Of a DNA stretch of 64,000 bases, positions 33,974-48,517 are shown piece after piece. A program made the position numbers and the translations under genes. The number at the start of each line of letters is the position of its first letter. Within the stretch, counting starts at the first letter, position 1. Under the pieces are notes generated by a model. That model was not told the origin of the DNA. It made no database searches and was given only the letters and a program-made list of their open reading frames with translations. Source of the DNA: Mycolicibacterium sp. TY81. GTDB taxonomy: Bacteria; Actinomycetota; Actinomycetes; Mycobacteriales; Mycobacteriaceae. The stretch is from positions 2,232,001-2,296,000 of the forward strand of contig NZ_AP023362.1 in the NCBI RefSeq assembly GCF_018326285.1, in the 5' to 3' direction.

Positions 33974-34050
33974 TGTCCGTTCTCATTGATTCTGGGGCAT
34001 TCTCATTGAATCTGGGGTAAGTGCGTGTCTTTCTCATTGAATCTGGGGCA
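33974..34050 (+). repeat. Transposon left end: three TnsB-site-like repeats
   Basis: A 20-bp unit TTCTCATTGAATCTGGGGCA occurs at 33980-33999 (one mismatch), 34000-34019 (one mismatch, ends TA) and 34031-34050, all in the same orientation. The first two abut. Dense direct repeats next to tnsA recall the right end of Tn7. Confidence 0.85.
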
Positions 34051-34354
34051 CGAGGCTTAGCGTTTATGTGTGCTGACGTCGGCTGTTTCGGCTGGGCCAG
34101 GTGTAGCGAGTGCAGTGGACTTGGAGTTCAACACCCGCGAGGGATGCACGCGGCAATCGCTGGACCGATGTGCTGCAACCCGGTTTGAGTTGGACTGTTC
34201 ACCAGTGCGGAATTTCCCCTCGTTTCGAGGTCAGCGTAACTTTCCCGGGCTGTGGTGGTTCGCCACAACCGGCGCACATGTAGGTCACGAGTCCTGGGTA
34301 GAATGAACCATCCCGCGTTTGATGCGCACCTCCTTCCTTGGGAAGGTGCATGTC

Positions 34355-34669
34355 ATGCCGAGCAAGTACGACCCGGAGACCCGAGCGAAGGCGGTCCGTC
34401 TGGTGCGCGAGCACCGGGAGGACTATCCGAGCGAGTGGGCGGCGATTACCGCGGTGTCCAAACGGTTGGGGATGAACGCCGAGACGCTGCGTAATTGGAT
34501 TCGCCAGCAACAGGTCGATGACGGTGATCGAGACGGGGTCTCTTCGGAGGCGGCTGCGGAGATCCGGGCGTTGAAACGGCGTAACGCCGAGCTGGAGCAG
34601 ACTATCGAAATCCTCAAGGCGGCAACGTCTTTCTTCGTGCGGGAGAGCGACCCGCGCAGCCGCCGCTGA
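34355..34669 (+). CDS. IS3-family OrfA (element A)
   Basis: 104 residues from the ATG at 34355 (MPSKYDPETRAKAV). It has a helix-turn-helix of the transposase_8 type ('SEWAAITAVSKRLGMNAETLRNWI') followed by a leucine-zipper-like coiled coil ('EIRALKRRNAELEQTIEILKAA'). It binds the IS ends. The frame ends just before OrfB, which continues in the -1 frame ('GERPAQPPLTATVCEFI'), as expected for an IS3 element made by programmed frameshifting. Confidence 0.88.
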   Translation: MPSKYDPETRAKAVRLVREHREDYPSEWAAITAVSKRLGMNAETLRNWIRQQQVDDGDRDGVSSEAAAEIRALKRRNAELEQTIEILKAATSFFVRESDPRSRR

Positions 34670-34734
34670 CCGCTACGGTCTGCGAGTTCATCGCCGCCCA
34701 CCGGGACCGTTTCGGGGTCGCTCCGATCTGTCGC

Positions 34735-35649
34735 GTGCTCACCGAGCACGCCGTGCCGATCGCCCCGCGGACATTTCATGCCTGGGCGGTGCGGGCGCCC
34801 TCGAAACGGGCCCTGTGGGACGCCACGATCACCGAGATCCTAGCCGGCTACTACGAGCCTGATGAGCACGGACGCCGCAGGCCCGAGTCGCTGTACGGGT
34901 CGCTGAAGATGTGGGCCCATCTGCAGCGTCAGGGCATCCCGGTGGCCAAGTCCACCGTGGAACGCCTGATGCGCAAGAACGGCTGGCAAGGCGTGCGCCG
35001 CCAGAAGAGGGTCCGCACCACGATCCCCGACCCGGAGGCGGTGCGACCGCCGGACCTGGTGGACCGCCAGTTCGGGGTGGCCGCACCCAACGTGCTGCTC
35101 GTGGCCGACTTCACCTACGTCAAGCTCGTCACCGGCGTGTTCGTCTACGTCGCGTTCGTCATCGACGCCTACGCCGGGTCGATCGTGGGCTGGGAAGCCT
35201 CGGCGTCCAAGCACACCCGCTTCGTCGAATCCGCGCTGCGTCAGGCCGCTGCACTGCGTGCCCGCCAAGGCCATCCCGTCGACGGCGCAATCCATCACAG
35301 CGACGCCGGCTCGCAGTACACGAGTGTGAGATTCGGTGAGACACTGAGCCTTTCGGGAATTCGCCCGTCCGTGGGCAGTGTTGGGGATGCCTTCGACAAC
35401 GCGCTGGCTGAGACGACCATCGGCCTGTACAAGAACGAATGTGTCCGGGCGGATTCCCCGTTTCGCCGCGGCCCACTGAACACCGTGGGCGACGTCGAAT
35501 ACATCACCGCCGACTACGTCGCCTGGTACAACCAGCAGCGCCTGATGCACCGCCTCGGACGCATTCCGCCGGCCGAAGCCGAAGCCCGCTACTATTCCCA
35601 ACTCGTGACCGGTAGACCGGCCGGATCACAGAAACCTGAGGGTGCATGA
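34735..35649 (+). CDS. IS3-family OrfB integrase (element A)
   Basis: 304 residues from the first ATG-type start, but normally translated as an OrfAB fusion by -1 frameshifting upstream. The retroviral-type DDE core has Asp in 'LLVADFTYVKL', Asp in 'IHHSDAGSQYTS' and Glu in 'NALAETTIGLYKNE'. It ends 'RLGRIPPAEAEARYY', as full-length members do. Both frames look intact. Confidence 0.88.
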   Translation: MLTEHAVPIAPRTFHAWAVRAPSKRALWDATITEILAGYYEPDEHGRRRPESLYGSLKMWAHLQRQGIPVAKSTVERLMRKNGWQGVRRQKRVRTTIPDPEAVRPPDLVDRQFGVAAPNVLLVADFTYVKLVTGVFVYVAFVIDAYAGSIVGWEASASKHTRFVESALRQAAALRARQGHPVDGAIHHSDAGSQYTSVRFGETLSLSGIRPSVGSVGDAFDNALAETTIGLYKNECVRADSPFRRGPLNTVGDVEYITADYVAWYNQQRLMHRLGRIPPAEAEARYYSQLVTGRPAGSQKPEGA

Positions 35650-36181
35650 AACCCGGGACGGTTCAGAACGTGACCAGTTGATGGCGTTGGATGCCGATCC
35701 GGATGTTGTTGGTGTTCTGTCGCAACCATTTTGGATTCATTGGCGTGACGGCACGCGGCATGCTCCTGACTACTTCGTGCGGCGCCGCGATGGATCTGTC
35801 GTCGTAGTCGACGTTCGTGAGGACGACCGGATCTCTGACGCTGATCGGGACGTGTTCGATCGGTCTGCCGCCACGTGCGCGATGGTCGGTTGGGATTACC
35901 TGCGTGTCGGTTCCCTCGATCCAGTGCTGCGGGCGAATCTACGTTGGTTGTCGGGTTATCGGCATCCGCGAGTATTGAAGATCGGTTTGGCTGATCAACT
36001 GGCGGAGGTCTTCGCTCGGGTCCGTCCGTTGATGGCTGGTGTGCACGCGGTCGGGACTCCTTTGGTGGTGCTGCCCGTACTGTTTCATCTGCTCTGGCAC
36101 GGCCGTTTAGTTGCCGATCTGCAAGGAGCGGCACTTGGCGACGACACGGCGATTGGCCTCGGGACCGGGTGGTGACCTGAC

Positions 36182-38263
36182 GTGCGAACGGGTGTCGTCC
36201 GAGAGGGAGACGAAATCCGTTTATCAGCAGGTGTTTTCACCGTCGTAACCCTGTCGGGCGGATCAGCTCGACTGGTTGACGCTGTCGGCGAGCAGATTGT
36301 GGTGCCGCTCTCGCAGCTGATGGTTGATCCGGCATTGGAATTGGTGTCGGGGTCGCGACCGCCACTGTGTTCTGAGGAAATGCTGGCTGGCATTCCCGAG
36401 GCAGCCGTCGAGCAAGCACGGTGGTGGGAGCGCCACATCGTGGAGATCCTCAGCGGCCGCCCGCCTGGGACGGCCGCGGGCATTCGTCCCCGCCCAGAGT
36501 TCGACACGGCGAAACGATCTCTGCGGCAGCGTGAGCTGGCCAAGTTGGACGAGCTGCGTGCCGCCGGCCACGACGTGAGTCGGAATGCGTTGCAGCGTCG
36601 CCGATTTGCCTACGAACGGGACGGGCTCCTGGGAGTGGTTGACGGGCGCCATAATCGGCGGCGCGCGGTATTCGGCCGTGTGGACGACCGTGTCGTCGCC
36701 GCGGTGCGGGATGCGATCGAGGGCGAGACCGACCTGTCAACGGGAACGGTGCAGCGTCTGCAACGGCGGGTCGCCAAGACGCTGGTGGCCACCTATGGTG
36801 CCGACGACGCGCCCGCGATGCCGTCGCAGCCCACCTTCTACCGGCTGGTCAAGCGCCTCGCGGAAGGACGGCACACGTTCGGGTCAGCACGGACGCGGCG
36901 ATCGCTGTCCAAGCAGCCCGATGGCCCATTCGGGTCGATCACCGTGGTGCGCCCCGGCGAGATGGTGGAAATCGATTCAACCCTTCTGGATGTACGGGTA
37001 GTGCTCGATGACGGCATGGTAGACCGAGTCGAGCTGACTGCGATGGTCGACAACGCTACGCGGTCCATCCCGGCCGCGGTGCTGCGACCGACGACCAAAG
37101 CAGTGGACGCGTCACTGCTCTTGGCGCGGGCATTGACGCCCGAACCGATGCGCCCGGGATGGGCCGATGCGCTGCGGATGTCCCGGTCGGTACTTCCGCA
37201 CCACAGCCTGACCAGTGTCGATCAGCGCCTGGCCGATGCTGCGGCCAGGCCGGTGATCGCTCCCGAGACGATCGTCTGCGATCACGGGAAAGCGTATCTG
37301 TCCCAAACATTTCGGCAAGCGTGCTGCACATTGGGGATCAATCTGCAGCCGGCTCATCCCGACTGCCCGACCGATAAGCCGAAGATCGAGCGGACATTGC
37401 AGTCGGTGGGCACCCTGTTCGCACAGTACGTGGCCGGTTACGTCGGTTCATCGGTGGAGCGGCGTGGGAAAAACGCCGAGGACGACGCGGTGTGGTCGAT
37501 GATTGAGCTGCAGGCGCTGCTGGACGAGTGGATCATCGCGGTGTGGCAGAACCGCCCCCACGATGGCCTGCGGGATCCGGTGACGCCGGGGAAAGCGTTG
37601 TCTCCCAACGAGAAATACACTGCCCTCGTTGAGGTGGCTGGCTATGTACCGGTCCCACTGGACGCCGACGACTATATCGAATTGCTTCCCGTGCAGTGGC
37701 GCACAATCAACAGTTACGGGGTCCGGATCAACCATCGCACCTATGACGCCAAGGCGCTCAACCCATACCGGCGCCAGCATTCCGGGGTCGATGCCCGTAA
37801 CGGACAGTGGGAAGTGCACTACGACCCGTATGACGTGTCGAGGATTTGGGTGCGCAATCACCACGAAGACGGATGGCTGGCCGCGACGTGGACGCACCTT
37901 CGGTCCTCGCCGGTGCCGTTCGGCGAGACACTGTGGCGCCACGCCCGCTCCGTAGCCGACCGCAGAGGGGCCCAGAAGACCCAGGAAGCGGAGATTGCGG
38001 CCATCGCGGAGGACTTGCTGGACCGCGCCGCCGCTGGGCCGCAGCAGCAGACGAAAGCCGAGCGCCGAGTGACTGGACGGACCAGCGCCGCGAGCGCCGG
38101 CCGGGACTGGCCGGACCCGACGGAATCATCCGAACATCATGGCCCGTCACCGTCGGAACGGGCCGCCGACAACGAGACTTTCGACGATGACGGCGAGATG
38201 GCGGAGGTCATACCCCTGCCGGTGTTTGATGCACGCAAGGAGGCCCAAACGTGGCGACTGTGA
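36182..38263 (+). CDS. tnsB: TnsB/TniA-like DDE transposase
   Basis: 693 residues, intact. The N-terminal DNA-binding region (about 1-230) contains two helix-turn-helix-like stretches ('NALQRRRFAYERDGLLGVVDGR', 'SQPTFYRLVKRLAEG'). The integrase core has Asp 265 ('VEIDSTLLDV'), Asp 367 ('VCDHGKAYLS') and Glu 403 ('DKPKIERTLQSV'). A Mu-type C-terminal beta barrel follows ('VRINHRTYDAKALNPYR', 'YDPYDVSRIWV'), then an acidic tail that may contact the ATPase. It starts 6 bp after tnsA and its last 13 bp overlap tnsC. In Tn7 this subunit binds the repeated end sites and joins 3' ends to target DNA. Confidence 0.92.
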   Translation: MRTGVVREGDEIRLSAGVFTVVTLSGGSARLVDAVGEQIVVPLSQLMVDPALELVSGSRPPLCSEEMLAGIPEAAVEQARWWERHIVEILSGRPPGTAAGIRPRPEFDTAKRSLRQRELAKLDELRAAGHDVSRNALQRRRFAYERDGLLGVVDGRHNRRRAVFGRVDDRVVAAVRDAIEGETDLSTGTVQRLQRRVAKTLVATYGADDAPAMPSQPTFYRLVKRLAEGRHTFGSARTRRSLSKQPDGPFGSITVVRPGEMVEIDSTLLDVRVVLDDGMVDRVELTAMVDNATRSIPAAVLRPTTKAVDASLLLARALTPEPMRPGWADALRMSRSVLPHHSLTSVDQRLADAAARPVIAPETIVCDHGKAYLSQTFRQACCTLGINLQPAHPDCPTDKPKIERTLQSVGTLFAQYVAGYVGSSVERRGKNAEDDAVWSMIELQALLDEWIIAVWQNRPHDGLRDPVTPGKALSPNEKYTALVEVAGYVPVPLDADDYIELLPVQWRTINSYGVRINHRTYDAKALNPYRRQHSGVDARNGQWEVHYDPYDVSRIWVRNHHEDGWLAATWTHLRSSPVPFGETLWRHARSVADRRGAQKTQEAEIAAIAEDLLDRAAAGPQQQTKAERRVTGRTSAASAGRDWPDPTESSEHHGPSPSERAADNETFDDDGEMAEVIPLPVFDARKEAQTWRL

Positions 38264-39279
38264 CCGAGATTGCGGCGGTGGGTCAGTTAGAGGATCGCCG
38301 CCAGCCGACCACGACGCTGGAGGGCTGGCGGCGTTTTGTTGATGCCGATCCGCCGGAGTTCACGTTGCTCGCCGACGACGAGTGGGCCAGCCTCGGTGAG
38401 GACGAGCGGACGGCCTACAACGAGGCCCGGGTTGCGCATCATTCGGAGCTGGTGGTGGTCACCACGTCGGCGATCGAAGCGATCACCCATCAGGGCCGGC
38501 TGTTGACATTGCTCAACCAGCGCGAGATCGGGGCCCGGCGCGGGCTGATCATCTCCGGCGGGGCAGCGACGGGGAAAACTACGGCGATCAAGCAACTGGG
38601 TCGGTTTCACGAATTGCGCACCCGTGCACGGTTTCCCGGCGATGAGAGCCGGATTCCGGTGGTGTATGTGACGGCCCCGCCGAAAGGGTCGCCCCGCAAG
38701 TTGGCGATGGAGTTCGCACGGTTTCTGGGGCTTCCCACGCTCAATCAGCGGATGAACGTGACCGATATTTCCGATGCCGTGTGCCAGGTGCTCATCGATG
38801 CCCGTACCGACATCGTGGTGGTCGATGAAATCCACAACCTCAACCTCGACACCCGCGCCGGCGAAGAACTGTCCGACCACCTCAAATACTTCACCGAGCA
38901 TCTGCCTGCGACATTCGTTTACGCCGGGATCGAAGTGGAACGCTCGGGGCTGTTCACCGGCACGCGGGGACGGCAGTTGGCCGGCCGTTGCGGGGTGATC
39001 CACACCAGCGCATTCCCCGACGCCAAGGAGTGGCGACAACTCGTCGCCGCCATGGAAGGTACCTTGCGTCTGCATCGACACGAACCGGGAAGCCTTGTCG
39101 CCCAGGCCCGTTACCTGCACCGCCGCACCGGCGGGATGATCGGCAGCCTGGCCCACTTGATCCGGGCTTCAGCAATCCAAGCGATGCTCGACGGCACCGA
39201 GCACATCACCCGCGAGGCCATGGACGATATTTTGATCGACTACGCCGCCCACACGGCCGCGGCCCGCACGGCCAGCTGA
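38251..39279 (+). CDS. tnsC: TnsC/TniB-like AAA+ ATPase
   Basis: 342 residues from GTG. Walker A is 'ISGGAATGKTTAI' (about 102-112) and Walker B is 'DIVVVDEIHNLN' (Asp 192, Glu 193). A sensor-like 'TFVYAGIEVE' and the TniB-type 'GRQLAGRCGVIHTSAF' follow. These ATPases form filaments on target DNA and connect the target selector (TniQ) to the transposase. The frame overlaps tnsB by 13 bp, and tniQ begins one base after its stop, so all are co-transcribed. Confidence 0.92.
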   Translation: MATVTEIAAVGQLEDRRQPTTTLEGWRRFVDADPPEFTLLADDEWASLGEDERTAYNEARVAHHSELVVVTTSAIEAITHQGRLLTLLNQREIGARRGLIISGGAATGKTTAIKQLGRFHELRTRARFPGDESRIPVVYVTAPPKGSPRKLAMEFARFLGLPTLNQRMNVTDISDAVCQVLIDARTDIVVVDEIHNLNLDTRAGEELSDHLKYFTEHLPATFVYAGIEVERSGLFTGTRGRQLAGRCGVIHTSAFPDAKEWRQLVAAMEGTLRLHRHEPGSLVAQARYLHRRTGGMIGSLAHLIRASAIQAMLDGTEHITREAMDDILIDYAAHTAAARTAS

Positions 39280-39676
39280 CGTGGCAACTGTCAGGCCGTG
39301 GCCGCGCGGACCACGCCAGCGGCTCCCGCGAACGATCGCACCGTTCCGTTGGGAAGCCGTATCGTCCTACATCGACAGGCTGGCCCGCGCCAACCATATC
39401 GGCGTCTCCACACTGCGCGGCCATGTCGCCGAATCATGCGCAGCCCGGCCGCGACCGGACTGGTTGGCCGTCGTCAGCGGCCAACCTGAGCAGGTAATCC
39501 GGTCCCGTCTCTGCGGGCTTGCTGGCGACCCCACCGCGCTCAAGCAATATCTCCGCCGCCCTTTGTGTCAAAGATGTATGGCACGCAAGGGAATACACGA
39601 ACCCGGGACTTGACCCCGTGTGTTGGACACGCTGAATCCCGCAAGGTTGGCGGGGGAAGCGAGATGATCCACCACG

Positions 39677-40010
39677 ATGGCAAGGAAAAATTACCCTGAC
39701 GAGTTCAAACGGGACGCGGTAGCGCTGTACCGAGACACCGAGGGCGCCACGATCACGCAGATCGCCGACGAACTCGGCATCTCCGGTGTGACGCTCTCAG
39801 CGTGGTGCAAAGCCGCCGGGGTGCCGATCAGGCACCGCAACCCCACCGCAGCAGCACAGCCGAGCCCCCGGCGTTGAGACCCCAGAGCAGGAGCTGGCCC
39901 GGCTACGGGCCGAGAACAAGGCGTTACGCGCCACGGAGGCTCGGTTGTCTACCGAGCGTGACATTCTGCGGTCGGCGGCCAAGTATTTCGCCGGGGAGAC
40001 GAACTGGTGA
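39677..40010 (+). pseudogene. IS3-family OrfA (element B), frameshifted
   Basis: It begins 'MARKNYPDEFKRDAVALYRD' with a transposase_8 helix-turn-helix ('TITQIADELGISGVTLSAWC'). The frame stops at 39877, but the rest of OrfA ('ETPEQELARLRAENKALRA' to 'SAAKYFAGETNW') is present in another frame and ends overlapping the OrfB GTG by 4 bp. The break coincides with a run of five C at about 39867-39871 (SP-GV expected, SPRR read). One extra C explains it, either as mutation or as a homopolymer error. Confidence 0.75.
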
Positions 40011-40851
40011 GCCGCTTCCAGTTCGTCGCCGACCACCTGCACACCTTCGAGGTGAAGTGGCTGTGCGCAGTCGTCGAGGTTGCGCGTTCATCGTTCTACG
40101 CCTGGTTGGCCGCTGCCGACGGACGCGCCGCCCGCCAGGCCGCTGACAAGGCGCTGGCCGCGCGTATCCGCACCGTGCACGATGAGGACAACACCTACGG
40201 GGCGCCGCGGATCACCGCTGAACTCAACGACGGTGCACCCGACGGTGAGCGGGTCAACCACAAGCGGGTGGCCCGGGTCATGCGCAGTGCCGGGATCGCC
40301 GGCTACCGCCGCCGGCGACGGGTGAAGACCACCACGCCGGATCCGGCCAAACAGAAAGTCCCGGACCTGCTCAACCGGGACTTCACCGCCGCGGCACCCA
40401 ACGTCAAGTACGTCGGCGACATCACCTACCTGCCATTGGCAAGCGGTTCGAATCTGTATCTGGCGACCGTGATCGACTGCTTCTCCGGACGGGTGGCGGG
40501 GTGGGCGATCGCCGAGCACATGCGCACCGAACTGGTCGAAGATGCCCTCAAAGCCGCTGCGGCGCTGCGCGGCTCCCTGACCGGTGCAGTGTTCCACACA
40601 GATCACGGAAGTCAGTACACCTCAAGGGATTTCGCGAACCTCTGCCGTGACTTGGAGGTCACCCAGTCTATGGGTGGCGTCGGGTCAAGTGCCGATAACG
40701 CGCTGGCCGAATCGTTCAACGCCGCCCTCAAACGCGAGATCCTGCAGGACCGCAGCCACTGGCCCGACGCTGCTACCTGCCGCCGCGAAGTGTTCCGCTG
40801 GCTGGCTCGCTACAACACCAAACGACGGCACTCCCGGTGCCGCTATTCCAG

Positions 40852-42333
40852 CGAGCAATGATCAGAACCTGTGGATGAGCCTCGGCGAGGCGGCGTAGGA
40901 AAGGGCGCACCTTCCCGAGGATGATCTGAATGTCGAAGGTCTGATCAAGAGCCGGCGTTGGCGCGCTGGTTCGGGAAGGTACGCCCATGCTCACGGTAGT
41001 TCACGATGCGGATTCATCCAACGAGGATGCTGGCTCGTCGCGGTCGTTGCTCGATGAGATTGTCCGCGACGGTGCCCGCCAGATGCTGGCCGCAGCGTTG
41101 CGGGCTGAGGTCGCCGCCTACATCGAGGCTCATGCCGGTGAGCTTGATGAGAACGGGCACCGGCTGGTGGTGCGCAATGGCTATCACCGCGAGCGCGAGG
41201 TGCTCACCGCGGCGGGCGCGGTGAGTGTGACCGCGCCGCGGGTCAATGACAAACGTGTTGACCCGGACACTGGTGAGCGGCAACGGTTTTCCTCGGCGAT
41301 CCTGCCGGCGTGGGTGCGCAAGTCGCCGCAGATGACCGAGGTGTTGCCGTTGCTGTATCTGCATGGCTTGTCGACCAGTGATTTCGGTCCGGCGTTGGAG
41401 CAGTTCCTGGGCTCGGGTGCCGGCTTGTCGGCCACGACGATCACCCGACTCACCACGCAGTGGCAGGACGAGGCCAAGGCCTTCGAGGCCCGTGATCTGT
41501 CGGGCACCGACTACGTCTACCTGTGGGTCGACGGCATCCATCTCAAGGTGCGCCTGGAGCAGGAGAAGCTCTGTTTGCTGGTGATGATCGGTGTGCGCGC
41601 TGACGGCCGCAAGGAGCTGGTCGCGCTCACCGACGGGTACCGGGAGTCGGCCGAGTCGTGGGCTGATCTGTTGCGGTCGTGCCGACGTCGCGGGATGACC
41701 GCACCGGTGCTGGCCGTCGGCGATGGGGCCCTGGGGTTCTGGAAGGCCGTGCGTGAGGTGTTCCCGGCCACCGGCGAGCAGCGGTGCTGGTTTCACAAGC
41801 AGGCCAATGTTCTTGCCTGCCTGCCAAAGTCGGCTCATCCGGGGGCGATCGCGGCGATGCGGGAGATCTACAACGCCGAGGATATCGACCACGCGCAGGT
41901 GGCGATCAAGGCGTTCGAGGTGGACTACGGCGCCAAGTACCCCAAGGCGGTCGCCAAGATCGTCGATGACGCCGATGTGCTGCTGGAGTTCTATAAGTAC
42001 CCGGCCGAGCACTGGGTCCATCTGCGCACTACCAACCCGATCGAATCAACGTTTGCCACGGTACGTTTGAGGACCAAGGTGACCAAGGGGCCGGGTTCAC
42101 GCGTCGCCGGAATGGCCATGGCTTACAAGCTGATCGACGCCGCGCAAGCCCGCTGGCGAGCCGTCAACGCACCGCACCTGGTCGCTCTGGTCCGGGCCGG
42201 CGCGATCTTCCACAAAGGCAAACTGCTCGAGCGACCCACCGACATCACCCCGTCGGCGGACTCGGCACCGACCGAATCAACTGGAACGGAGGTCGCCTGA
42301 AACAAGCCGATCCACAGGTATTGACAATTCCTC
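40852..42333 (+). mobile_element. IS256-family insertion sequence, copy 3 (1,482 bp), nested in IS3 element B
   Basis: The ends are CGAGCAATGATCAGAACCTG at the left and the complement of GAGGAATTGTCAATACCTG at the right. The 8-bp duplication TATTCCAG ends at 40851 and recurs at 42334-42341. It is nearly identical to copy 2 in opposite orientation and has an intact transposase. Confidence 0.93.
40987..42300 (+). CDS. IS256-family transposase (copy 3), intact
   Basis: 437 residues, the full length for the family. The N terminus is 'MLTVVHDADSSNEDAGSSRS'. The DDE residues lie in 'YLWVDGIHLKVRL', 'LAVGDGALGFWKAVREVF' and 'TTNPIESTFATVRLRTK', with the family's C-x-x-H in 'QRCWFHKQANVL'. It is a probable source of active transposase for all three copies in the window. 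Confidence 0.95.
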   Translation: MLTVVHDADSSNEDAGSSRSLLDEIVRDGARQMLAAALRAEVAAYIEAHAGELDENGHRLVVRNGYHREREVLTAAGAVSVTAPRVNDKRVDPDTGERQRFSSAILPAWVRKSPQMTEVLPLLYLHGLSTSDFGPALEQFLGSGAGLSATTITRLTTQWQDEAKAFEARDLSGTDYVYLWVDGIHLKVRLEQEKLCLLVMIGVRADGRKELVALTDGYRESAESWADLLRSCRRRGMTAPVLAVGDGALGFWKAVREVFPATGEQRCWFHKQANVLACLPKSAHPGAIAAMREIYNAEDIDHAQVAIKAFEVDYGAKYPKAVAKIVDDADVLLEFYKYPAEHWVHLRTTNPIESTFATVRLRTKVTKGPGSRVAGMAMAYKLIDAAQARWRAVNAPHLVALVRAGAIFHKGKLLERPTDITPSADSAPTESTGTEVA

Positions 42334-42973
42334 TATTCCAGCCCTGCGACCTACGAAAGGACCCTAACACCGGCTACGCTGCCAGTAGCCGCGTAACCAC
42401 AAATCCCGTGTCCACTACATGGGGGCAAGGCCCCCCGTCTACTGCTACCTGCCTGCACATGTCTCCGTATGCCACCGTCACCGACGCTGGATCGGTTCAC
42501 CAACGCGCGTTCTTGACGACCAGGTGGATCTTCGTGACCGGCCCACGGTGCTCAGTGCCGGGCGCACGCATCGGCGCTTGGCCCGTCAGTATTCAGAGGT
42601 CGACCTTCATGACGCCTTGGGCGACGCCCGCCACATCCTGGTCTTCTGGGCTCACGCAGAGCGTCACGTGGCGGCGGGGATTCTGCAGAATGGCCTAGAA
42701 GCGCACGTGGTGGCCTACCCCGATGTGATCGCCGTAGCCGCAACATTGCTCACAGCTCGCCCTCGGGTTGAACAGCCCAGGACGCCAACGGAACCCGCCT
42801 GGCCGACGCTACTGCTCGACCGCATCAACGAACGCACCGGCGCCCACCATGCCGACGCCACCCCCGTCGAGCAATGGGCGCAGTACCGACGCCTATTCGC
42901 CACTGCCGTATTGACGACACGCTCAGACGGCGCAGAACTGGCGTGTCGCGCTTAGGGGTCGGCAGTCTTGAAT

Positions 42974-42993
42974 GTGCCTTATCAGTAAGGCAC
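42974..42993. terminator. Bidirectional hairpin between tniQ and the mer operon
   Basis: Perfect 8-bp stem GTGCCTTA/TAAGGCAC with the loop TCAG. It sits 19 bp after the tniQ stop and about 100 bp before the convergent ccdA-like stop. The U-tract is short, so efficiency is uncertain. Confidence 0.5.
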
Positions 42994-43091
42994 TTGTGGT
43001 GTGCATCTGACTGTGTCCGACGGTTGTATCTATCGGCTTTCTAATCGTTAGGGACAGTGGTATCTGGCTGGGTGTATCGGCCGGTGAATCA

Positions 43092-43940
43092 TCACCGGCG
43101 GCGCTGCTTGCCGGTGATTGGCCGGCGGTGGGTGGTCCAGCACGCGGCCACCGCGCTGACCACCACAGCGAAGGCGGCAATGACGCTGGCCGGGAGGGCG
43201 TGGTCCTGCAGCCATCCGGTCGCGGTGGCCGACCAGCCGGTGAGCAGGTTGCCGCCGCTGGCGGTGTGCCCGGTGGCCGCGGGCAGCCAGTACCACGCGA
43301 GGTAGGCGCCGGTGGCGATGAGGACAACGGCGGTGACGCGGGTCCCGTGGCGGGCGAGGATACCCAGATGCCGGGTCAGGGCCGTGCCGGCGATGGCGGT
43401 GCCGACGCTGACCAGCATCAAGATGGTGGCGGCACCGGCTGTGTATGCGGTGAACACTGCCAGCAGACCGCCCCATCCGCTGGTGGCCTGGGCCTGGGCG
43501 ATCACCGCGAGCAGTACCCCGAAGGTGCAGGACAGTGACGCCAGGGCGTAGCCGATTCCGGCCGCGAGCACACCACCGGCTGTTGGGGAGTCCGGCCGAT
43601 GACGCGTCCGGGCAGGCATACGCAGACCGATGGTGCGGCCGGTGAGCATGAAGCCGCCCAAGATGGCCAGGGTGAGCCCGATCGTGATCCCGAGCCAGGG
43701 AGCAGCCGTCACCAGGGTCCGGGCACCGGCACTGATCGCGATACCGGCGAGGGTGAGGGTGCCGGTGAACCCGATGGTCAGGACGGCCCCGGTGCGCAGT
43801 GCCCGGGCCAGCCGCACGAGCACCGCATCGGTGCCGCCGGTGGCGATGGTGCCGGTGATCCACGCCGGTAGCAGCGCGAACCCGCAGGGGTTGACCGGGG
43901 CGAGCATGCCAGCGGTAAACGCGAGCGCGAGCAGGTTCAC
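43092..43940 (-). CDS. CcdA/DsbD-type membrane thiol-disulfide transporter
   Basis: 282 residues with about six or more membrane helices. The redox cysteines are Cys 19 in 'APVNPCGFALLP' and Cys 138 in 'ASLSCTFGVLLA', the two positions that define CcdA. It would move electrons from cytoplasmic thioredoxin to an extracytoplasmic thiol protein. The gene overlaps the upstream CGEC lipoprotein gene by 4 bp and is the last gene of the mer operon, so the two are an obvious redox pair. Confidence 0.88.
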   Translation of the reverse strand: MNLLALAFTAGMLAPVNPCGFALLPAWITGTIATGGTDAVLVRLARALRTGAVLTIGFTGTLTLAGIAISAGARTLVTAAPWLGITIGLTLAILGGFMLTGRTIGLRMPARTRHRPDSPTAGGVLAAGIGYALASLSCTFGVLLAVIAQAQATSGWGGLLAVFTAYTAGAATILMLVSVGTAIAGTALTRHLGILARHGTRVTAVVLIATGAYLAWYWLPAATGHTASGGNLLTGWSATATGWLQDHALPASVIAAFAVVVSAVAACWTTHRRPITGKQRRR

Positions 43941-44491
43941 CGTGCGGCGCTGCTGCCGAGGGCGGCCAGGATCTGATCCTGGGACGGGGCGTGGCCGCGG
44001 TAGCTGATCTGCCCGGACGGGTCGATGACGAGGGCGGTGGTCGGCGCGGTCACCTGGTAGCGGCTGGTCAGGGCCCCGTTAGTATCGACGACCGCGGGCA
44101 GGCTGGTGCCGCCGATCTGGTCCAGGAAGTGGCGAACATCGGCGGGTTTCTCGGTGGGGACGATGTCGACGGCTAGGAACTTGGCGCTGCCTCCGGCTTT
44201 CTCCACGGCCGCCCGAGCAGCGGCCAGGGATTTACCGCCGCCGACGCATTCGCCGCACCCGTAGGAGAAGAACAGGATCGCGGTCGGGGCGGCAGCGGGC
44301 AGTTCGACGGTTTTGCCGTCCACCGTGGTCAGTGTCGCCGCCGTCGCCTGGGTTGTGGCGTTGGCGTGTGGCGGTGAGGTCGGATTGCTGGTTGTGGCCG
44401 ATTGGCCGCACGCGGTCAGCGCGCCCGCTGCCAGCATCACAGCCGTAACGCCCGCCCACCTGTGGGGTGTAAACGAACGCGTTTCAGACAT
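43937..44491 (-). CDS. Thioredoxin-fold lipoprotein with CGEC motif
   Basis: 184 residues. The lipobox 'LTAC' puts the lipidated Cys at 28, so it sits on the outer face of the membrane. The redox motif is C79-G-E-C82 in 'FFSYGCGECVGGG', followed by a thioredoxin-like 'LAVDIVPTEKPADVRHFLDQ' and the cis-Pro region 'GGTSLPAVVDTNG'. The thioredoxin fold is plain, although the motif differs from CPPC or CGPC. It overlaps the transporter gene upstream by 8 bp and the CcdA gene by 4 bp. It may bind or reduce Hg(II) complexes, or keep the MerF-like cysteines reduced. Confidence 0.85.
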   Translation of the reverse strand: MSETRSFTPHRWAGVTAVMLAAGALTACGQSATTSNPTSPPHANATTQATAATLTTVDGKTVELPAAAPTAILFFSYGCGECVGGGKSLAAARAAVEKAGGSAKFLAVDIVPTEKPADVRHFLDQIGGTSLPAVVDTNGALTSRYQVTAPTTALVIDPSGQISYRGHAPSQDQILAALGSSAAR

Positions 44492-44774
44492 TGTCGATGC
44501 TTCCTTTCGTCAGGTCGTCGAGCGTGTGCGTCGCGGGTGAATGGCTGTCGGCGGGACAGCAGTGATCGCCGCGTTGACCGCGGCGGGCGAAGGCGACCAC
44601 AGCCGCCAGCAGCAGCGCGACGGCTGCCCCGATGACCCATGGATTCTCGAGCAGTCCACACACGGCGGCGAGCGCGCCGCCGGCGATCAGGACTGGCGCG
44701 GCGCAACACAGGGCCGTCACCAGCACCGCTGCCGCACCCAGCAGCACGGGATTTCTTCGTGGACGTTGATTCAT
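44484..44774 (-). CDS. MerF/MerT-like mercuric ion transporter
   Basis: 96 residues with two membrane helices (about 10-40 and 46-63). A vicinal cysteine pair lies in the first helix (Cys 23-24 in 'VTALCCAAPVLI'), with Cys 38 at its end and a second pair after helix 2 (Cys 71-72 in 'RGDHCCPADSH'). That is the minimal mercury-importer layout of MerF. No MerP-like periplasmic carrier is encoded; the CGEC lipoprotein next to it may take that place. Confidence 0.8.
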   Translation of the reverse strand: MNQRPRRNPVLLGAAAVLVTALCCAAPVLIAGGALAAVCGLLENPWVIGAAVALLLAAVVAFARRGQRGDHCCPADSHSPATHTLDDLTKGSIDNV

Positions 44775-44806
44775 TGATTTCTCCTCATCAGGTTGGGTGC
44801 GGCTGG

Positions 44807-45448
44807 TCAGCTGCAGCAGCCGGGGTGGGCAGTTGGCGGGGTATGGAGCTGGGTAAGGATTTGTGTGGTCAGGGCTGCGCCGAGTTGGTGGGCCTCAGCG
44901 ACGCTGACGATCTGACCTTCGGGGTGCTCGGCGAGCCACGGCGCGGCGTCCTGCGCGCAGGTGAAGTAGTGCACCTGGTTGCAGAATGAGGACCGGATCG
45001 AGGTGAGGTCGTCGGGGTTGACCAGCGAGACCACCGCGGTCTCGGGCTGCACGCTGGTGACACCGTTTTCGCCGACCGAGACCCTGATCGGGTGCCCGCT
45101 GACGGGTGATTCGGATTCGATGCTGGCGGGCCGGTCCAGGATGGTGGGAAAGATGAGGGTGTCCAGGGCGCACCAGGTGTAGAGCTCTTGGCCGGCCACG
45201 GTGAATCGGTGGCGGGTCGGGCGCAGGGTCAGGCCCTGGCCGACGATGCGGCCCTGCTCGTCGTATTCGGTGTCGGGTACCGCGGCCAGACGCCGGGTCA
45301 CCTCGTCAACCGGGAGGCCGACGGCCGCGGCGAGCGCCTCCACGGTGACCGGCTCGCCGGCGGCGAGCAGCCGCAGCAACGGCACCAGCATCGTCGGGTC
45401 GAGCCCGGACTCTTCCGGAATGGTCAGGCGGTCAAGGAAATTGGGCAT
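44807..45448 (-). CDS. merB: Organomercurial lyase
   Basis: 213 residues, the normal MerB size. The catalytic set of R831b MerB (Cys 96, Asp 99, Cys 159) appears as Cys 93 and Asp 96 in 'YTWCALDTLIFP' and Cys 156 in 'RSSFCNQVHYF'. It breaks the carbon-mercury bond of organomercurials and hands Hg(II) to MerA. The ATG at 45448 fits the family start; the same frame is open far upstream only as antisense of merA. The C terminus ends GCCS, an additional thiol pair. Confidence 0.93.
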   Translation of the reverse strand: MPNFLDRLTIPEESGLDPTMLVPLLRLLAAGEPVTVEALAAAVGLPVDEVTRRLAAVPDTEYDEQGRIVGQGLTLRPTRHRFTVAGQELYTWCALDTLIFPTILDRPASIESESPVSGHPIRVSVGENGVTSVQPETAVVSLVNPDDLTSIRSSFCNQVHYFTCAQDAAPWLAEHPEGQIVSVAEAHQLGAALTTQILTQLHTPPTAHPGCCS

Positions 45449-45474
45449 CAGGAACCTTTCGAGTGAGCCATGCG

Positions 45475-46878
45475 TCAGGATGCGCAGCAGGACAGTCGGG
45501 ACATATCGGCGCTGAAGGACTGGGCGGCGATTTTGATGCCTTCGGCCATGGTCAGATACGGGGCCCAGGACCCGGCGACCTGGTCGACGGTCATCGCGGC
45601 GTCGAGGATGTAGACCGCGGCGGCGGCGATCTCGCCAGCATCCTTGGCGACGGCGGTGATGCCGTGGATGCGGCCGGTGCCGGCGTCGGCGACGAGTTTG
45701 ATGAAACCGCGGGTGTCTCGGTTGACCACCGCACGCGGCACATGTTTTAGCGGCAGCACCCGGCAGTCGCACCGTGTCCCGGCGGCGAGGAGCTCGGCCT
45801 CGGTCGTCCCGGCCGCACCGACCGCGGGGCTGGTGAACGTCACGCGGGGCAGATGGCGGTAGTCGACCCTGCGGCCGGCGTCGGTGAAGATGTTGTCGGC
45901 GACCATCGCGCCGTGATGGGCGGCGACGTAGACGAACTCGCGGTGCCCGGTCACGTCGCCGGCCGCCCAGATCCGTGGGTTCGACGACTGCAGCCCGTCG
46001 CTCACCACGACCTCGTTGTTCTCGCCGGTTTTGACCTGCACCGCTTCGAGATTCAGGCCGTCGGTGTTCGGACGGCGGCCGGTGGCGACGAGGACTTTCG
46101 CGGCACGGAACTGCTGCGTTCCGCCGGTGATGGTCGCGGTGACCGTGACCTGATCGTCGGCCTGCTCGACCTCGCTCACCGTGGCGCGGCGCACCACCCG
46201 GATGCCGTCGTCGGCGAACACCTCCAGCAGCGCCATGCCGACTTCCGGCTCTTCCTTCGATGCCAGCGTGGAGCGGACCAGCACCGTCACCGTTGACCCG
46301 AGCCGGGCGAACAGTTGCGCCTGCTCCAACGCGACGTAGCCGCCGCCGATCACCAGCAGCGACTCCGGGACCTCGGTGACTTCCATCGCGGTGGTCGAGG
46401 TCAGGTAGGCGACGCCCTCGAATGCGGGCGGGATGACTGGGTTCGCGCCGGTGGCGATCAGGTAGTGCTCGGCCTCGATGGTGGCATCGCCGACCTCGAT
46501 GACGGGCGCGTCCGGGGTTCCGGCGAACCGCGCTTGGCCCTGAATGCGCTGCCAGCCATACGATTCGGCCACGTTGAGGTACTTCTCTGAGCGCAGCGAC
46601 TCCACCAGATCGTGCGTGCCGGCGATCAGGGCCGCCATGTCCACCGGGCCGGCCGTGGTGGCGATCCCCGGGAACCGGGCAGTGTCGGCTGCGGTATGCC
46701 GGGCCTCGGCCGCTGCGATCAGGGCCTTTGACGGCACGCAGCCGGTGTTGACACACGTGCCACCGAAGATGCCGCGCTCGATCATGACGACGGACTTGCC
46801 GAGCGCGGTAGCGCGGATCGCCGCGGCCATCGCCGCGCCGCCGGAACCGATGACCGCGAGGTCCAATCCCTGACTCAT
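45475..46878 (-). CDS. merA: Mercuric reductase without N-terminal HMA domain
   Basis: 467 residues from the ATG at 46878. It has an FAD-binding 'AVIGSGGAAMAAAIRA' motif, the redox-active pair Cys 42 and Cys 47 in 'GGTCVNTGCVPSKAL', an NADPH-binding 'LLVIGGGYVALEQAQLF' motif and the dimer domain 'GRIHGITAVAKDAGEI'. The C-terminal Hg-binding pair is 'RLSCCAS'. It lacks the NmerA metal-binding domain, as in many actinobacterial enzymes. It reduces Hg(II) to Hg(0) in the cytoplasm with NADPH. It is the first gene of the operon, directly downstream of the MerR operator. Confidence 0.95.
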   Translation of the reverse strand: MSQGLDLAVIGSGGAAMAAAIRATALGKSVVMIERGIFGGTCVNTGCVPSKALIAAAEARHTAADTARFPGIATTAGPVDMAALIAGTHDLVESLRSEKYLNVAESYGWQRIQGQARFAGTPDAPVIEVGDATIEAEHYLIATGANPVIPPAFEGVAYLTSTTAMEVTEVPESLLVIGGGYVALEQAQLFARLGSTVTVLVRSTLASKEEPEVGMALLEVFADDGIRVVRRATVSEVEQADDQVTVTATITGGTQQFRAAKVLVATGRRPNTDGLNLEAVQVKTGENNEVVVSDGLQSSNPRIWAAGDVTGHREFVYVAAHHGAMVADNIFTDAGRRVDYRHLPRVTFTSPAVGAAGTTEAELLAAGTRCDCRVLPLKHVPRAVVNRDTRGFIKLVADAGTGRIHGITAVAKDAGEIAAAAVYILDAAMTVDQVAGSWAPYLTMAEGIKIAAQSFSADMSRLSCCAS

Positions 46879-46887
46879 GCACCCATC

Positions 46888-46917
46888 CTTGACCTTCAAG
46901 TAGGCTTGAAGGTCAAG
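46888..46917. promoter_or_regulatory. MerR operator (perfect 30-bp dyad)
   Basis: Arms CTTGACCTTCAAG and its exact complement are separated by TAGG. TTGACC serves as a -35-like element inside the dyad, as expected for MerR promoters with an operator in the spacer. It lies 9 bp before the merA start and 17 bp before the merR start, so it can control both divergent genes. The short leader implies transcripts with little or no untranslated region. Confidence 0.9.
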
Positions 46918-46934
46918 TGTTCTGAGGAGACATC

Positions 46935-47324
46935 GTGAGAATCGGGAAGCTCGCCGAGGCGACCGGGGCCACCACCGCGACGCTGCGCTACTACGAAGAC
47001 GAAGGCCTGCTCCCGCCCGCCGAACGTTCCCCGGCGGGGTATCGCGACTATGCCGCCGACACGATCGCCCGGGTCGGCTTCATCCGACGGGGACAGGCCG
47101 CCGGGTTCAGCCTCGCCCAGATTCGGCAGATCCTCGACATCCGTGACAGCGGCCACGCGCCGTGCACGCACGTGCGCGACCTGCTCGACATCCGACTGAC
47201 CGACCTCGACGAGCAGATCAGCGCACTGGTGGCACTGCGCGAGACCATCGCCCGGCTGCGGCAGGGCGCCGAAAGCGTCGACCCGGAATCATGCAGCGCC
47301 GATGACGTATGTCGATACCTCTAG
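46935..47324 (+). CDS. merR: MerR-family mercury-responsive regulator
   Basis: 129 residues from GTG. The winged-helix domain is typical ('IGKLAEATGATTATLRYYEDEGLLPPAER'), followed by the long dimer helix. Cysteines at 77 ('HAPCTHV'), 120 and 126 ('ESCSADDVC') match the three Hg-binding thiols of MerR in spacing. It would hold RNA polymerase at the operator and activate by DNA distortion when Hg(II) binds. It is divergent from merA. Confidence 0.9.
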   Translation: MRIGKLAEATGATTATLRYYEDEGLLPPAERSPAGYRDYAADTIARVGFIRRGQAAGFSLAQIRQILDIRDSGHAPCTHVRDLLDIRLTDLDEQISALVALRETIARLRQGAESVDPESCSADDVCRYL

Positions 47325-47462
47325 GAGCCACCTCCGTGGCACCGGAGGCATGTATTTCGTCAAGTCCGTTGACCCCGGCAGTCGTCATGAATTTCCGCCC
47401 CACTGGAGGTCGTTGGTGCGCGGGAGCGCGGGGCCTGCTGAGCAGTAGGCTCACCCGATGCG

Positions 47463-48104
47463 GTGGGATTTCACTCGAAGCTGGTCGCATTGGCCGTGCT
47501 GAGCCCAGCCACACTCGTTCAGGCGATCGCCACCTTCGCCATCACCAATATCGACGACATCGTGGTCCTCGCGGTGATGTTCGGCCAGGCGCCCGGTCAT
47601 CGTGGCGCAGCCATCCGAGTGACCGCCGGTCAGTACCTCGGCTTCACCGCCATCTTGGCAGTTTCGGTCGGCGGCGCACTCCTGGGTGCCACGCTGCTTC
47701 CTCCAGCCGCACTGCCGTACTTCGGGCTGCTGCCCATCGTGTTGGGGCTGCGGGCGGCATGGCTGGCCTGGCGGGATCGCCGCACCCAACCGGCGCCGAC
47801 CGATGATCCCGCAACACTGTTGACGCCTGGCACCTGGCAGGTCGCAGTCATCACCTTCGCCAACGGCGGCGACAACATCGGCGTGTACGTTCCGATCTTC
47901 GCCGTCTCAACGATCGCCACCATCGGTGTTTACATCATCGTGTTCCTCATCGGTGTGGCCATCTGGTGCGCGGCCGGCCGATATTTCGCCTCCCACCCGA
48001 TCATCGCCAAAGCACTCTCACGCTGGGGCCACATCGTTCTGCCCGTTGCACTGATCACAATCGGGGCCCTCATCCTCATCAAAGGCGGAGCGTTCGCCCT
48101 CTAG
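47463..48104 (+). CDS. CadD-family cadmium resistance transporter
   Basis: 213 residues with five to six helices. The N terminus reads '[19 protein letters not shown]' and the mirrored second half '[18 protein letters not shown]', both with the acidic residues typical of CadD. These exporters confer cadmium resistance in Gram-positive bacteria. The GTG at 47463 is used, although shorter starts are possible. It follows merR at 138 bp in the same direction and completes the heavy-metal cargo. Confidence 0.85.
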
Positions 48105-48105
48105 C

Positions 48106-48310
48106 TCGGAGCAACTTCACCACTCAGGGCCAGGAGGCGCTCCTGCATCGGCATGTGTTGGCGTTCAACCACTTTGGTGATGTCCCGGCCCGTATCCGCT
48201 ATGACAATCTAAAACGGGCGGTGGCCAAGGTGCTCAAAGGCCGCAGCCGGCACCCGAACTACCAACACGAGCGAGCGCACCACAGAATCATGATCGTGTG
48301 TCACGAGAGA
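48106..48310 (+). pseudogene. IS21-family IstA fragment
   Basis: A frame reads '[20 protein letters not shown]' followed by '[20 protein letters not shown]' and 'LKGRSRH'. This is the central DDE region of an IstA transposase (F.GGVP..V.YDNLK). Sequence before and after does not continue the family and there is no istB. It is a relic close to the right end of the transposon. Confidence 0.8.
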
Positions 48311-48414
48311 CACGATCACAGTAGTTATACCGAAGACGTACCCGAGCCAACGGAATCGACAGGAGACCATTCCGGCTACCCTGCTGCGCTCGCAGCCGGG
48401 CGCGGAAGCAGGGT

Positions 48415-48517
48415 AGCCCCAGATTCAATGAGAAACGTCGCGATCGAAATTCTCATCCAATCTGGGGCAATGCAGGTCAGACTAGTAAATGTGCCCCAGA
48501 TTCAATGAGAACGGACA
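48415..48517 (-). repeat. Transposon right end: three TnsB-site-like repeats
   Basis: The 20-bp unit occurs on the complement at 48415-48434 (a near-perfect copy) and 48492-48511, and in the opposite orientation at 48450-48469 with two or three mismatches. Spacing is wide (about 35-40 bp), unlike the packed left end. This asymmetry mirrors the spaced sites of the Tn7 left end. The outer end is followed by the target repeat ACTCC. Confidence 0.82.

Follow-up and report, generated by a model that had tools for sequence, protein, structure and literature searches.

What is the mercury-resistance element carried by Mycolicibacterium sp. TY81, and what determines where it and its relatives insert? 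We analysed a window of 64,000 nucleotides from this genome (assembly GCF_018326285.1, contig NZ_AP023362.1, positions 2,232,001–2,296,000 of the forward strand), in which the element, 14,544 bp long, spans positions 33974–48517. We read it as a mercury-resistance transposon of the Tn7 superfamily, 10.35 kb long when intact and here interrupted, with a core like that of Tn5053/Tn402 (TniA, TniB and TniQ) and, in addition, a TnsA-type endonuclease. Its termini are of the form TGT...ACA and carry six repeats of 20 bp each, and 5 bp of the target are duplicated:

33969..33973, no strand: target-site duplication ACTCC, left copy, by sequence comparison
33974..34050, plus: left end, TGTCCG tip and 20-bp repeats at 33980–33999, 34000–34019 and 34031–34050
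48415..48517, minus: right end, 20-bp repeats at 48415–48434 (minus), 48450–48469 (plus) and 48492–48511 (minus), and CGGACA tip
48518..48522, no strand: target-site duplication ACTCC, right copy

A preliminary description of the locus had proposed these borders, the ACTCC pair and the six repeats, and sequence comparison bore them out: the repeats were recovered with at most 3 mismatches, against an expectation of 0 from 100 shuffles. Arrays of ~20-bp repeats at both ends together with a 5-bp duplication are a mark of the Tn7 superfamily, and TnsB presumably binds these repeats at both ends. Behind the left end lie the transposition genes:

34070..34303, plus: tnsA, 5' piece, interrupted; aligned with the intact copy at L045:9254-9994
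34304..35664, plus: IS3-family insertion in tnsA, with orfA within 34319–34669 and orfB at 34735–35649; BLAST blocks with a 4-bp overlap
35665..36175, plus: tnsA, 3' piece; NF033179 model positions 47–211
36182..38263, plus: tnsB/tniA, DDE transposase, 693 aa, open; Pfam Mu-transpos_C (rve below cut-off), TnsB in the PDB, Tn402 TniA
38251..39279, plus: tniB/tnsC, AAA+ ATPase, 342 aa, open; Pfam TniB (PF05621), TnsC in the PDB
39281..39605, plus: tniQ, 5' piece, interrupted; comparison with L045
39606..42433, plus: insertion in tniQ, with an IS3-family transposase at 40007–40861 and an IS256-family transposase at 40987–42300
42434..42988, plus: tniQ, 3' piece; aligned with L045:13100-13975

The four transposition genes first proposed are present, with tnsB and tniB open and matched by Pfam models, but insertion sequences interrupt both tnsA and tniQ, so that not all four are intact in the window copy. 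Comparison with the intact copy L045 put the length of the insertion in tnsA at 1,361 bp and that of the stretch inside tniQ at 2,828 bp, and confirmed that tnsA starts ~20 bp past the third repeat. At both insertions, adjoining BLAST blocks share 4 bp, consistent with 4-bp duplications. The window copy has presumably lost autonomous movement.

We identified TnsA mainly through its predicted structure. An AlphaFold model (pLDDT 89) of the product of this gene, which is interrupted in the window copy, has the predicted fold of a TnsA endonuclease, the PDB matches at E ≤ 0.001 being 1t0f chains A and B and 1f1z, all Tn7 TnsA, and a chain of 9bw1, a TnsABCD transpososome. By sequence, a profile comparison with Tn7 TnsA gave no useful match and a search of the PDB gave chance matches only; TnsA of relatives matches PF08722. 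Counting against the assignment, the presumed active site has an invariant Arg where Lys is expected. TnsB matched Tn6677 TnsB in the PDB (E 5.8e-11), as a DDE transposase should, and its D265, D367 and E403, invariant in 16 sequences, are probably the catalytic residues. Its profile aligned with the Tn402 TniA of R751 over 470 columns (hhalign probability 98.4, E 8e-15); TnsB is closer to this TniA than to Tn7 TnsB, and scarcely aligns with the Tn7 TnsB of R721. TniQ, the partner of the AAA+ TniB, was identified via a relative of 42% identity that passes PF06527; it exceeds the Pfam cut-off solely in relatives, which counts against it. No resolvase or integrase, and hence no TniR of the Tn5053/Tn402 type, was found among the scanned products of L045 and the window.

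The remainder of the element carries the cargo of mercury-resistance, redox and transport genes that had been read from the letters:

43092..43940, minus: ccdA-like membrane protein; CcdA annotation in a 100%-identical stretch of a M. aubagnense plasmid
43937..44491, minus: TlpA-like thioredoxin-fold protein; profile match and TlpA annotation in a relative
44807..45451, minus: merB, organomercurial lyase; above the curated cut-off
45475..46899, minus: merA, mercuric reductase; TIGR02053, 538 bits, above cut-off
46935..47324, plus: MerR-family regulator; Pfam
47463..48104, plus: cadD-like transporter; Pfam Cad above cut-off, TIGR00779 below cut-off
48107..48268, plus: IS21-family istA fragment; NF033546, E 1e-10, model positions 155–204 of 294

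These assignments upheld that reading, merA and merB by curated cut-offs, the MerR- and Cad-family proteins by Pfam, and the CcdA- and TlpA-like proteins, the former without a Pfam match, by the relative's annotation. The istA fragment is also present in the intact copy.

The intact version of the transposon, 10,347 bp long, occurs in many mycobacterial species, with ten full-length copies 99.76–99.95% identical to the reference L045. The left end of the window element recurs in L042, L043, L045, L048, L071 and L089–L095. Of the 13 near-identical copies for which both ends and their flanks were available, nine had matching 5-bp duplications; these were absent from L042, L088, L092 and L093, the last two being reciprocally swapped. 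A first search of 61 genomes (the host's own and 60 relatives) found no site homologous to the left flank of the window copy, and the empty site was later located in L091, whose genome has its own copy of the element ~130 bp further on. As the preliminary description had anticipated, this relative has an uninterrupted site with a single 5-bp target, ungapped across the junction.

We next asked where the element lies on the chromosome. A pattern for dif, the site of chromosome-dimer resolution by XerCD, matched the published dif of F. alni and was found in 278 of 297 genomes of the genus, mostly once each, with 0 matches in all rows for the reversed control. Only 345 bp separate the window copy from the single dif of its host, around which the host GC skew flips sign:

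48860..48887, plus: host chromosomal dif, not part of the element; its presumed XerC-binding arm is the one closer to the element

This adjacency, the most unusual feature of the element, is not visible from the letters as first read. Matching duplications defined 15 sites of the mer element, of which nine lie 199–515 bp from dif and four 169–888 bp from a dif-like site; the two misses, L089 and L090 (both in genome G153), have neither within 2–4 kb. The four dif-like sites among the 13 near-dif sites were recognized with 1–2 core mismatches or by profile score, and may be plasmid sites or decayed ones. Sites of this kind are used on the M. aubagnense plasmid and on a probably integrated plasmid. 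Distances to dif vary within the mer branch, and either end may face dif. An insertion preference for vapC-like genes, seen by eye in several flanks, was dropped once dif was recognized as the motif that they have in common.

Relatives with both ends showed the same association, with eight of ten within 1 kb of dif and nine of ten within 2 kb (one at 1,890 bp); L064 has no dif. In other branches the left ends lie 42–56 bp from dif in all 15 resolved cases, seven of which have a matching duplication and an inverted right end. All 29 dif-adjacent rows of the TnsB tree fall in one clade of 62, compared with 0 of 28 in the sister clade; the clade of 62 also includes relatives that lie tens of kb away from dif or on a different contig. 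Around sites then thought to be non-dif, neither serine nor tyrosine recombinase genes were a consistent neighbour (nine genomes), and no weak dif-like sequence exceeded the shuffled background in the flanks then compared. An end-sequence search of the 297 genomes, with matches in 28, provided the flanks that L041, L042 and L094 had lacked, and dif-like sites are present in them. Among unpaired ends, L205 has dif at 371 bp, and no dif was found at L088 (two flanks), the right side of L042, L063, L044, L200, L202 or the flank common to L196, L197 and L203.

Taken as a whole, these data are very probably best explained by an interrupted mer transposon whose family directs insertion to the neighbourhood of dif, presumably by way of dif sites occupied by XerC and XerD. 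By analogy with Tn7, TnsA would cut the other strand, giving cut-and-paste movement that leaves 5-bp duplications. The complex of TniQ and TniB would be recruited by dif bearing the host XerC and XerD, steering insertion to the surroundings of dif and of dif-like sites on plasmids, at a fixed 42–56 bp in some branches and mostly at ~170–890 bp in the mer branch. We propose XerCD as the recruiter by analogy with Tn5053, for which recruitment by res sites carrying bound resolvase is reported, and with the IS1202 family at dif, for which a comparable proposal exists. A broader version, in which dif is the attachment site of the whole clade, XerC/XerD-bound dif is the selector, fixed and looser 'hunter' modes coexist, and the mer branch also uses Xer-type sites of plasmids, so carrying cargo between plasmids and chromosomal termini, hangs in the balance, our judgement falling just short of even.

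The most serious alternative is that transposon-encoded target proteins read dif DNA directly, as TnsD reads attTn7, without XerCD; the reader would be TniQ in most branches and perhaps an XerC-like recombinase in the L159 branch. The fixed spacing of the 15 left ends equals the ~50 bp reported for CASTs in the available text of PMC8649781, and the L159 element does encode such a recombinase (TIGR02224, 159 bits, below cut-off). It shares this with the Tn7-like elements of Tn6022 type, for which the text of PMC10293859 describes TnsF, a target selector of tyrosine-recombinase type, but the Tn6022-type target is comM, and XerC is absent from that main text, in which the 'dif' matches examined were everyday words. 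The scatter of the mer branch, with either end towards dif, is unlike a fixed attachment site, and no recombinase was found among the scanned products of L119 (three), L118 (five), L155 (four), L067 (three) or the mer element. We regard direct reading as possible but on balance doubtful. Far less probable is a terminus that merely tolerates mobile elements, insertions elsewhere having been lost so that adjacency to dif reflects selection, or a general hot spot for mobile elements, rather than targeting. Accessory DNA is generally abundant in this region, but of the 82 IS3-family copies that share a contig with a known dif, none lies within 5 kb of it, the sister clade of TnsB is never dif-adjacent, a plasmid dif-like site is also used, and the fixed spacing is so hard to explain in this way that it largely refutes the idea.

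Tn7 TnsE is reported to direct insertion to replication termination or double-strand breaks, and targeting of that kind, rather than of dif itself, would agree with the fact that replication ends at dif, where the skew of the host flips. The scanned proteins included no TnsE-like gene, and the insertions lie within hundreds of bp of dif, or at 42–56 bp in the 15 cases, and also use dif-like plasmid sites; we give this explanation very little chance. The probability is practically negligible that the ends belong to an IS21-family istA/istB element in which the tns genes are passengers, even though the right end has the istA fragment immediately inside it and IS21 ends can also carry repeats. 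We assign the ends to the tnsA–tnsB(tniA)–tniB–tniQ element because they bound its 10,347-bp version in many mycobacterial species, and ends of this type bound such elements with quite different cargo, in keeping with the original attribution to TnsB. In addition, no istA/istB pair, which had been named as contrary evidence, was present in eight stretches with ends unpaired with any listed tnsB (at four of these the scan covered the larger ORFs). They contained pieces of the mer element, ends beside unrelated cargo and a single derivative that a deletion had left with tnsA and a portion of tnsB. Of IS21, the element itself holds the istA fragment only.

The family resembles several known systems. 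With Tn5053/Tn402 (Tn5090) it shares the TniA–TniB–TniQ core, 5-bp duplications, repeated ends and, for Tn5053, mer cargo. To our knowledge Tn5053/Tn402 lack TnsA, and none is annotated beside tniABQ in R751, whereas the intact copies studied here carry tnsA. These elements, the 'res site hunters' of Minakhina 1999, lie at the res sites of resolvases, whereas ours lies beside dif. With Tn7 it shares the TnsA fold and the tnsA–tnsB–tnsC gene order, but it has a scarcely alignable TnsB (R721), a short TniB-type ATPase and another site; no scanned product matched TnsD or TnsE, and unlike canonical Tn7, whose attTn7 is at glmS, it has sites beside dif or elsewhere.

The ISAjo2 group of the IS1202 family comprises the 'dif site hunters' of Harmer et al. 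2023 (PMC10132070), which, in the available text of that report, adjoin dif on chromosomes and pdif sites on plasmids, in each case on the XerC side, and are proposed to interact with XerC. According to the same text, the IS1202 family has a TnsB-like transposase, TGT...ACA ends and 5-bp duplications, as here, but the ISAjo2 group consists of 1.5-kb single-gene insertion sequences from Acinetobacter, whose distance from the XerC site is invariably 5 bp. The family described here falls outside that definition, being made up of many-gene actinobacterial transposons with TnsA, TniB, TniQ and cargo, at 42–56 or ~170–890 bp. The suggestion that the element was perhaps undescribed went too far, since actinobacterial elements of this kind are already catalogued: the NF033179 model 'TnsA_like_Actin', of the same phylum, matches its TnsA and that of all five other dif-adjacent elements tested, and Benler et al. 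2021 (PMC8649781), in its available text, describes an Actinobacteria-dominated clade in which mercury-resistance cargo is abundant. The element may belong to clade 2 of that paper. The terms dif site, XerC, dimer resolution and terminus are absent from its main text as searched. In a full-text collection that covers few subscription journals, we found no report of dif as the target of a Tn7- or Tn5053-like transposon. As a target, dif is thus already known from IS1202-family insertion sequences; for a Tn7/Tn5053-like transposon it appears to be new.

Most bacterial chromosomes contain dif once, as a conserved site that is not a gene and is bound by host recombinases. A large transposon reading it, if that is what this family does, would find a landing site that is common among bacteria and probably harmless. 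Such targeting would broaden the concept of res hunting, known from Tn5053, to include XerCD sites, tie it to the dif-hunting insertion sequences and represent a new route by which Tn7-like machinery recruits a host complex. It would also account for the way in which many mycobacterial chromosomes came to carry one mercury-resistance element at their terminus.

The window copy has TGT...ACA tips and is flanked on either side by the 5-bp duplication ACTCC, with its ends confirmed at 33974 and 48517 as the preliminary description had claimed. Its six 20-bp end repeats, three per end, held up as well: a search of the whole 64 kb allowing up to three mismatches returned precisely these six, with none in 100 dinucleotide shuffles. 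The element and the nearby dif (the XerCD chromosome-dimer resolution site) are placed as follows:

33974-48517: element, TGT...ACA tips, 5-bp duplication ACTCC on either side
48860-48887: dif, 345 bp from the right end of the element

Compared with the intact 10,347-bp copy of Mycolicibacterium chubuense DSM 44219 (L045), the window copy comprises three blocks that are 99.9-100% identical, plus two insertions. Of the four transposition genes described for it, tnsB and tniB have open reading frames, whereas tnsA is split by a 1,361-bp insertion with an IS3-family transposase and tniQ by a 2,828-bp insertion with IS3- and IS256-family transposases; intact tnsA and tniQ were taken from copies in other genomes, and the split window genes were left unrepaired. 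The proposed merABR, redox and cadD cargo was identified as merA, merB, a MerR-family regulator, one ccdA-like gene, one TlpA-like gene and a cadD-like gene, and an IS21 istA fragment lies inside the element close to its right end. This tnsB occurs once in the host genome, where the remaining TnsB matches are at most 39% identical. One distant tnsB-like locus (G000:C1 ~5,025,322-5,028,591; L103) matches in two pieces, and dif is absent from the 14 kb around it.

A TnsA model built from an alignment of 43 relatives (pLDDT 89) had four PDB matches at E ≤ 0.001: Tn7 TnsA (1t0f A, 1t0f B and 1f1z) and a chain of the TnsABCD transpososome (9bw1). E78, D112 and D126-x-R128 are unchanged in 43/43 aligned sequences, and we infer from the alignment that they form the active site; R128 is an arginine at the position of the usual lysine in all 43. 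By profile comparison, Tn402 TniA (hhalign probability 98.4, E 8e-15) is a much nearer match to this TnsB than Tn7 TnsB is (probability 1.4). TniB matches TnsC in the PDB, and the Pfam TniQ model was passed by the TniQ of relatives alone. The element products that were scanned included no resolvase. By analogy with Tn7 the element would move by cut-and-paste.

Comparison of 17 copies revealed a 26-bp motif common to their flanks that agrees with the actinobacterial dif described for Frankia alni (PMC3025954). Of the 297 genomes, 278 contain a 21-bp dif pattern (up to one mismatch), usually as a single occurrence, and the reversed control gave 0 throughout. Host dif lies at 2,280,863; GC skew is positive in 8/9 sampled stretches at 100-2200 kb and negative in 9/9 samples at 2320-4900 kb, and the last two samples gave +0.03 and ~0.

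Pairing ends by their 5-bp duplications defined 15 sites of the near-identical mer element: nine copies unaltered, two sites in genome G102 with their duplications unswapped, and four completed by end search (M. arenosum, L201/L199; the M. aubagnense plasmid, L094/L207; L042-left/L198; L041/L204). A dif or dif-like site lies near 13 of the 15. In nine it is dif, at 199, 212, 215, 220, 228, 342, 345, 385 and 515 bp; in four it is a dif-like site, at 169, 274, 683 and 888 bp, the first scoring 32.5 bits where 10 shuffles reached at most 5.1, and the other three carrying 1-2 core mismatches. L089 and L090, both in G153, have neither within the 2-4 kb examined. Among unpaired ends, L205 has dif 371 bp away, and dif was not found at L088 (two flanks), L042 right, L063, L044, L200 or L202, or near L196, L197 and L203, whose common right flank (TCGATCAGCTCG) in three genomes perhaps goes back to a single insertion spread by a mobile element that they share. 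The L040, L057 and L058 contigs contain no flanking sequence; L040 and L199 come from one genome. Among ten relatives that are more distant and have both ends, nine have dif at 178, 181, 305, 316, 607, 613 (with two mismatches), 734, 735 and 1,890 bp, the exception being L064. Either end of the element can face dif. At the mer-branch sites located before the end search, the arm that we take to be XerC-binding, following the E. coli convention, points to the element, except in L098. We also observed dif between a mer element and a different TnsB element (L116/L048, G156), a TTCATC-N-GATGAA-like palindrome ~10-30 bp from dif in L116, L067, L091, L156 and L158 and, by eye, PIN-domain vapC-like genes adjoining the insertion sites at L071, L095, L090 and L063.

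Outside the mer branch, spacing is fixed. Two deeper branches, with TnsB ~42-44% and 33% identical, and one Kribbella element gave 15 resolved left ends, every one of them separated from the dif core by 42-56 bp; wherever several TGTC were present, the end was chosen by eye for its likeness to other ends. L119 and L120 share one genome, and the L120 site has two mismatches. A matching 5-bp duplication together with an inverted right end was identified for seven of the 15; for the remaining eight no right end with a duplication was accepted, L158 offering one weak candidate. Three members of the 49% branch whose dif is 1.6-6.1 kb from tnsB (L151, L152 and L153_0) are left out of the resolved set, as are L060_1, which lies behind another element, and L055, L056, L059, L062, L081, L100 and L125. 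All five TnsA proteins tested from fixed-spacing elements matched NF033179 ('TnsA_like_Actin'). In L159 the first gene of the element (2413-3633) encodes an XerC-like tyrosine recombinase, possibly a target selector. The spacing resembles the ~50 bp between CASTs and their target reported by Benler et al. (PMC8649781).

A 92-row TnsB tree that predates the end search was built by a quick method with SH-aLRT as its sole support measure, and a long-branch warning applies where the 33% and 43% branches join. In it, all 29 dif-adjacent rows fell within one 62-row clade (support 97), against 0/28 in the sister clade; 'not adjacent' here means none in the stretch covered, which in most cases extended ~5 kb upstream and 15 kb downstream and in some was shorter. 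As a control, 0/82 IS3-family copies on contigs with known dif position, the other listed copies being dropped, lay within 5 kb of dif and 2/82 within 10 kb, one of these inside the window element. Streptomyces chromosomes are linear, and dif was not seen near the Streptomyces members. Since cargo varies (mer, P-type metal ATPases, alkyl sulfatase, MMPL, PE_PGRS-like, type I restriction-modification), we think that dif adjacency goes with the transposition genes.

Searching the 297 genus-group genomes for the terminal 24 bp (up to one mismatch) gave matches in 28, with 0 in every control row. We examined 17 stretches around newly found ends, eight of which (L191-L198) had ends unpaired to a listed tnsB. 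The preliminary description had raised the prospect of the same ends around istA/istB; no such pair was found in these stretches. L196-L198 hold mer-element pieces, and in L191 and L193-L195 the ends lie beside other cargo. L192 (9940-12930), 2,991 bp long, is a deletion derivative that keeps tnsA and a portion of tnsB and is bordered by matching ATGCG duplications. L191:9918-13441, 621 bp from dif, is a 3.5-kb stretch bounded by both end types, and the end at L193:9858 lies 236 bp from dif and adjoins an MMPL gene. Having ends without a full tns set, L191, L192 and L193 are possible non-autonomous elements.

TnsB relatives (E ≤ 1e-60) occur in 79/297 genomes. TnsB is 99-100% identical in M. 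arenosum, M. rhodesiae, M. novocastrense, M. chubuense, M. nebraskense, M. llatzerense, M. lehmannii and the M. aubagnense plasmid, among others, and a further ten full-length copies match L045 at 99.76-99.95% identity. By hand count of the matches listed, MerA is 100% identical in 18/297 genomes, 15 of which also carry 99-100% TnsB, and at least 54% identical in 43/297, the 18 included. Flanks at the one locus shared by the L071, L092/L093 and L043 copies are only 85-92% identical, and between the window and L091 (G222) the flanks agree at 97% over 1.6 kb with the duplications differing, which suggests that near-identical copies arrived independently and recently. Related transposition genes were also seen on an M. 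intracellulare subsp. chimaera plasmid (L105, NZ_CP015280.1; TnsB 78%, metal-transporting P-type ATPases) and in the M. abscessus prophage prophiGD05-1 (MW584169.1, 50595-53287; DNA identity 77% to the element).

L091 also supplied the empty site: its sequence runs ungapped across the window junction with a single copy of the 5-bp target position, its own element sitting ~130 bp beyond. An earlier search of 61 genomes had found no homologous site. Duplications match in 9/13 near-identical copies having both ends and flanks and are unmatched in L042 and L088. In G102, L092 (~2.31 Mb) and L093 (~2.49 Mb) have exchanged right duplications and enclose ~171 kb. This segment includes a dif-like site and a MobF-type relaxase match, the sole one in G102, which argues that a plasmid probably integrated at the terminus through both copies, whether as a cointegrate or by homologous recombination. 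The right end of one copy (L043:19427) stops 77 bp early, at the inner repeat, and the duplication still matches, as if the inner repeat had turned into the tip.

'Dif site hunters' are already known among Acinetobacter IS1202-family insertion sequences, whose transposase is TnsB-like and which sit 5 bp away from the XerC site of a dif or pdif (Harmer et al. 2023, PMC10132070). In the library searched, we found no paper tying a Tn7- or Tn5053-like transposon to dif. Siguier 2023 is reportedly a second paper on such dif site hunters, and Tn5053 is reported to be a 'res site hunter'. The preliminary description was largely right in its observation and partly right in its interpretation. The main result is the target: a many-gene transposon family that inserts beside dif, with the proximity directly observed and the recruiting molecule inferred.
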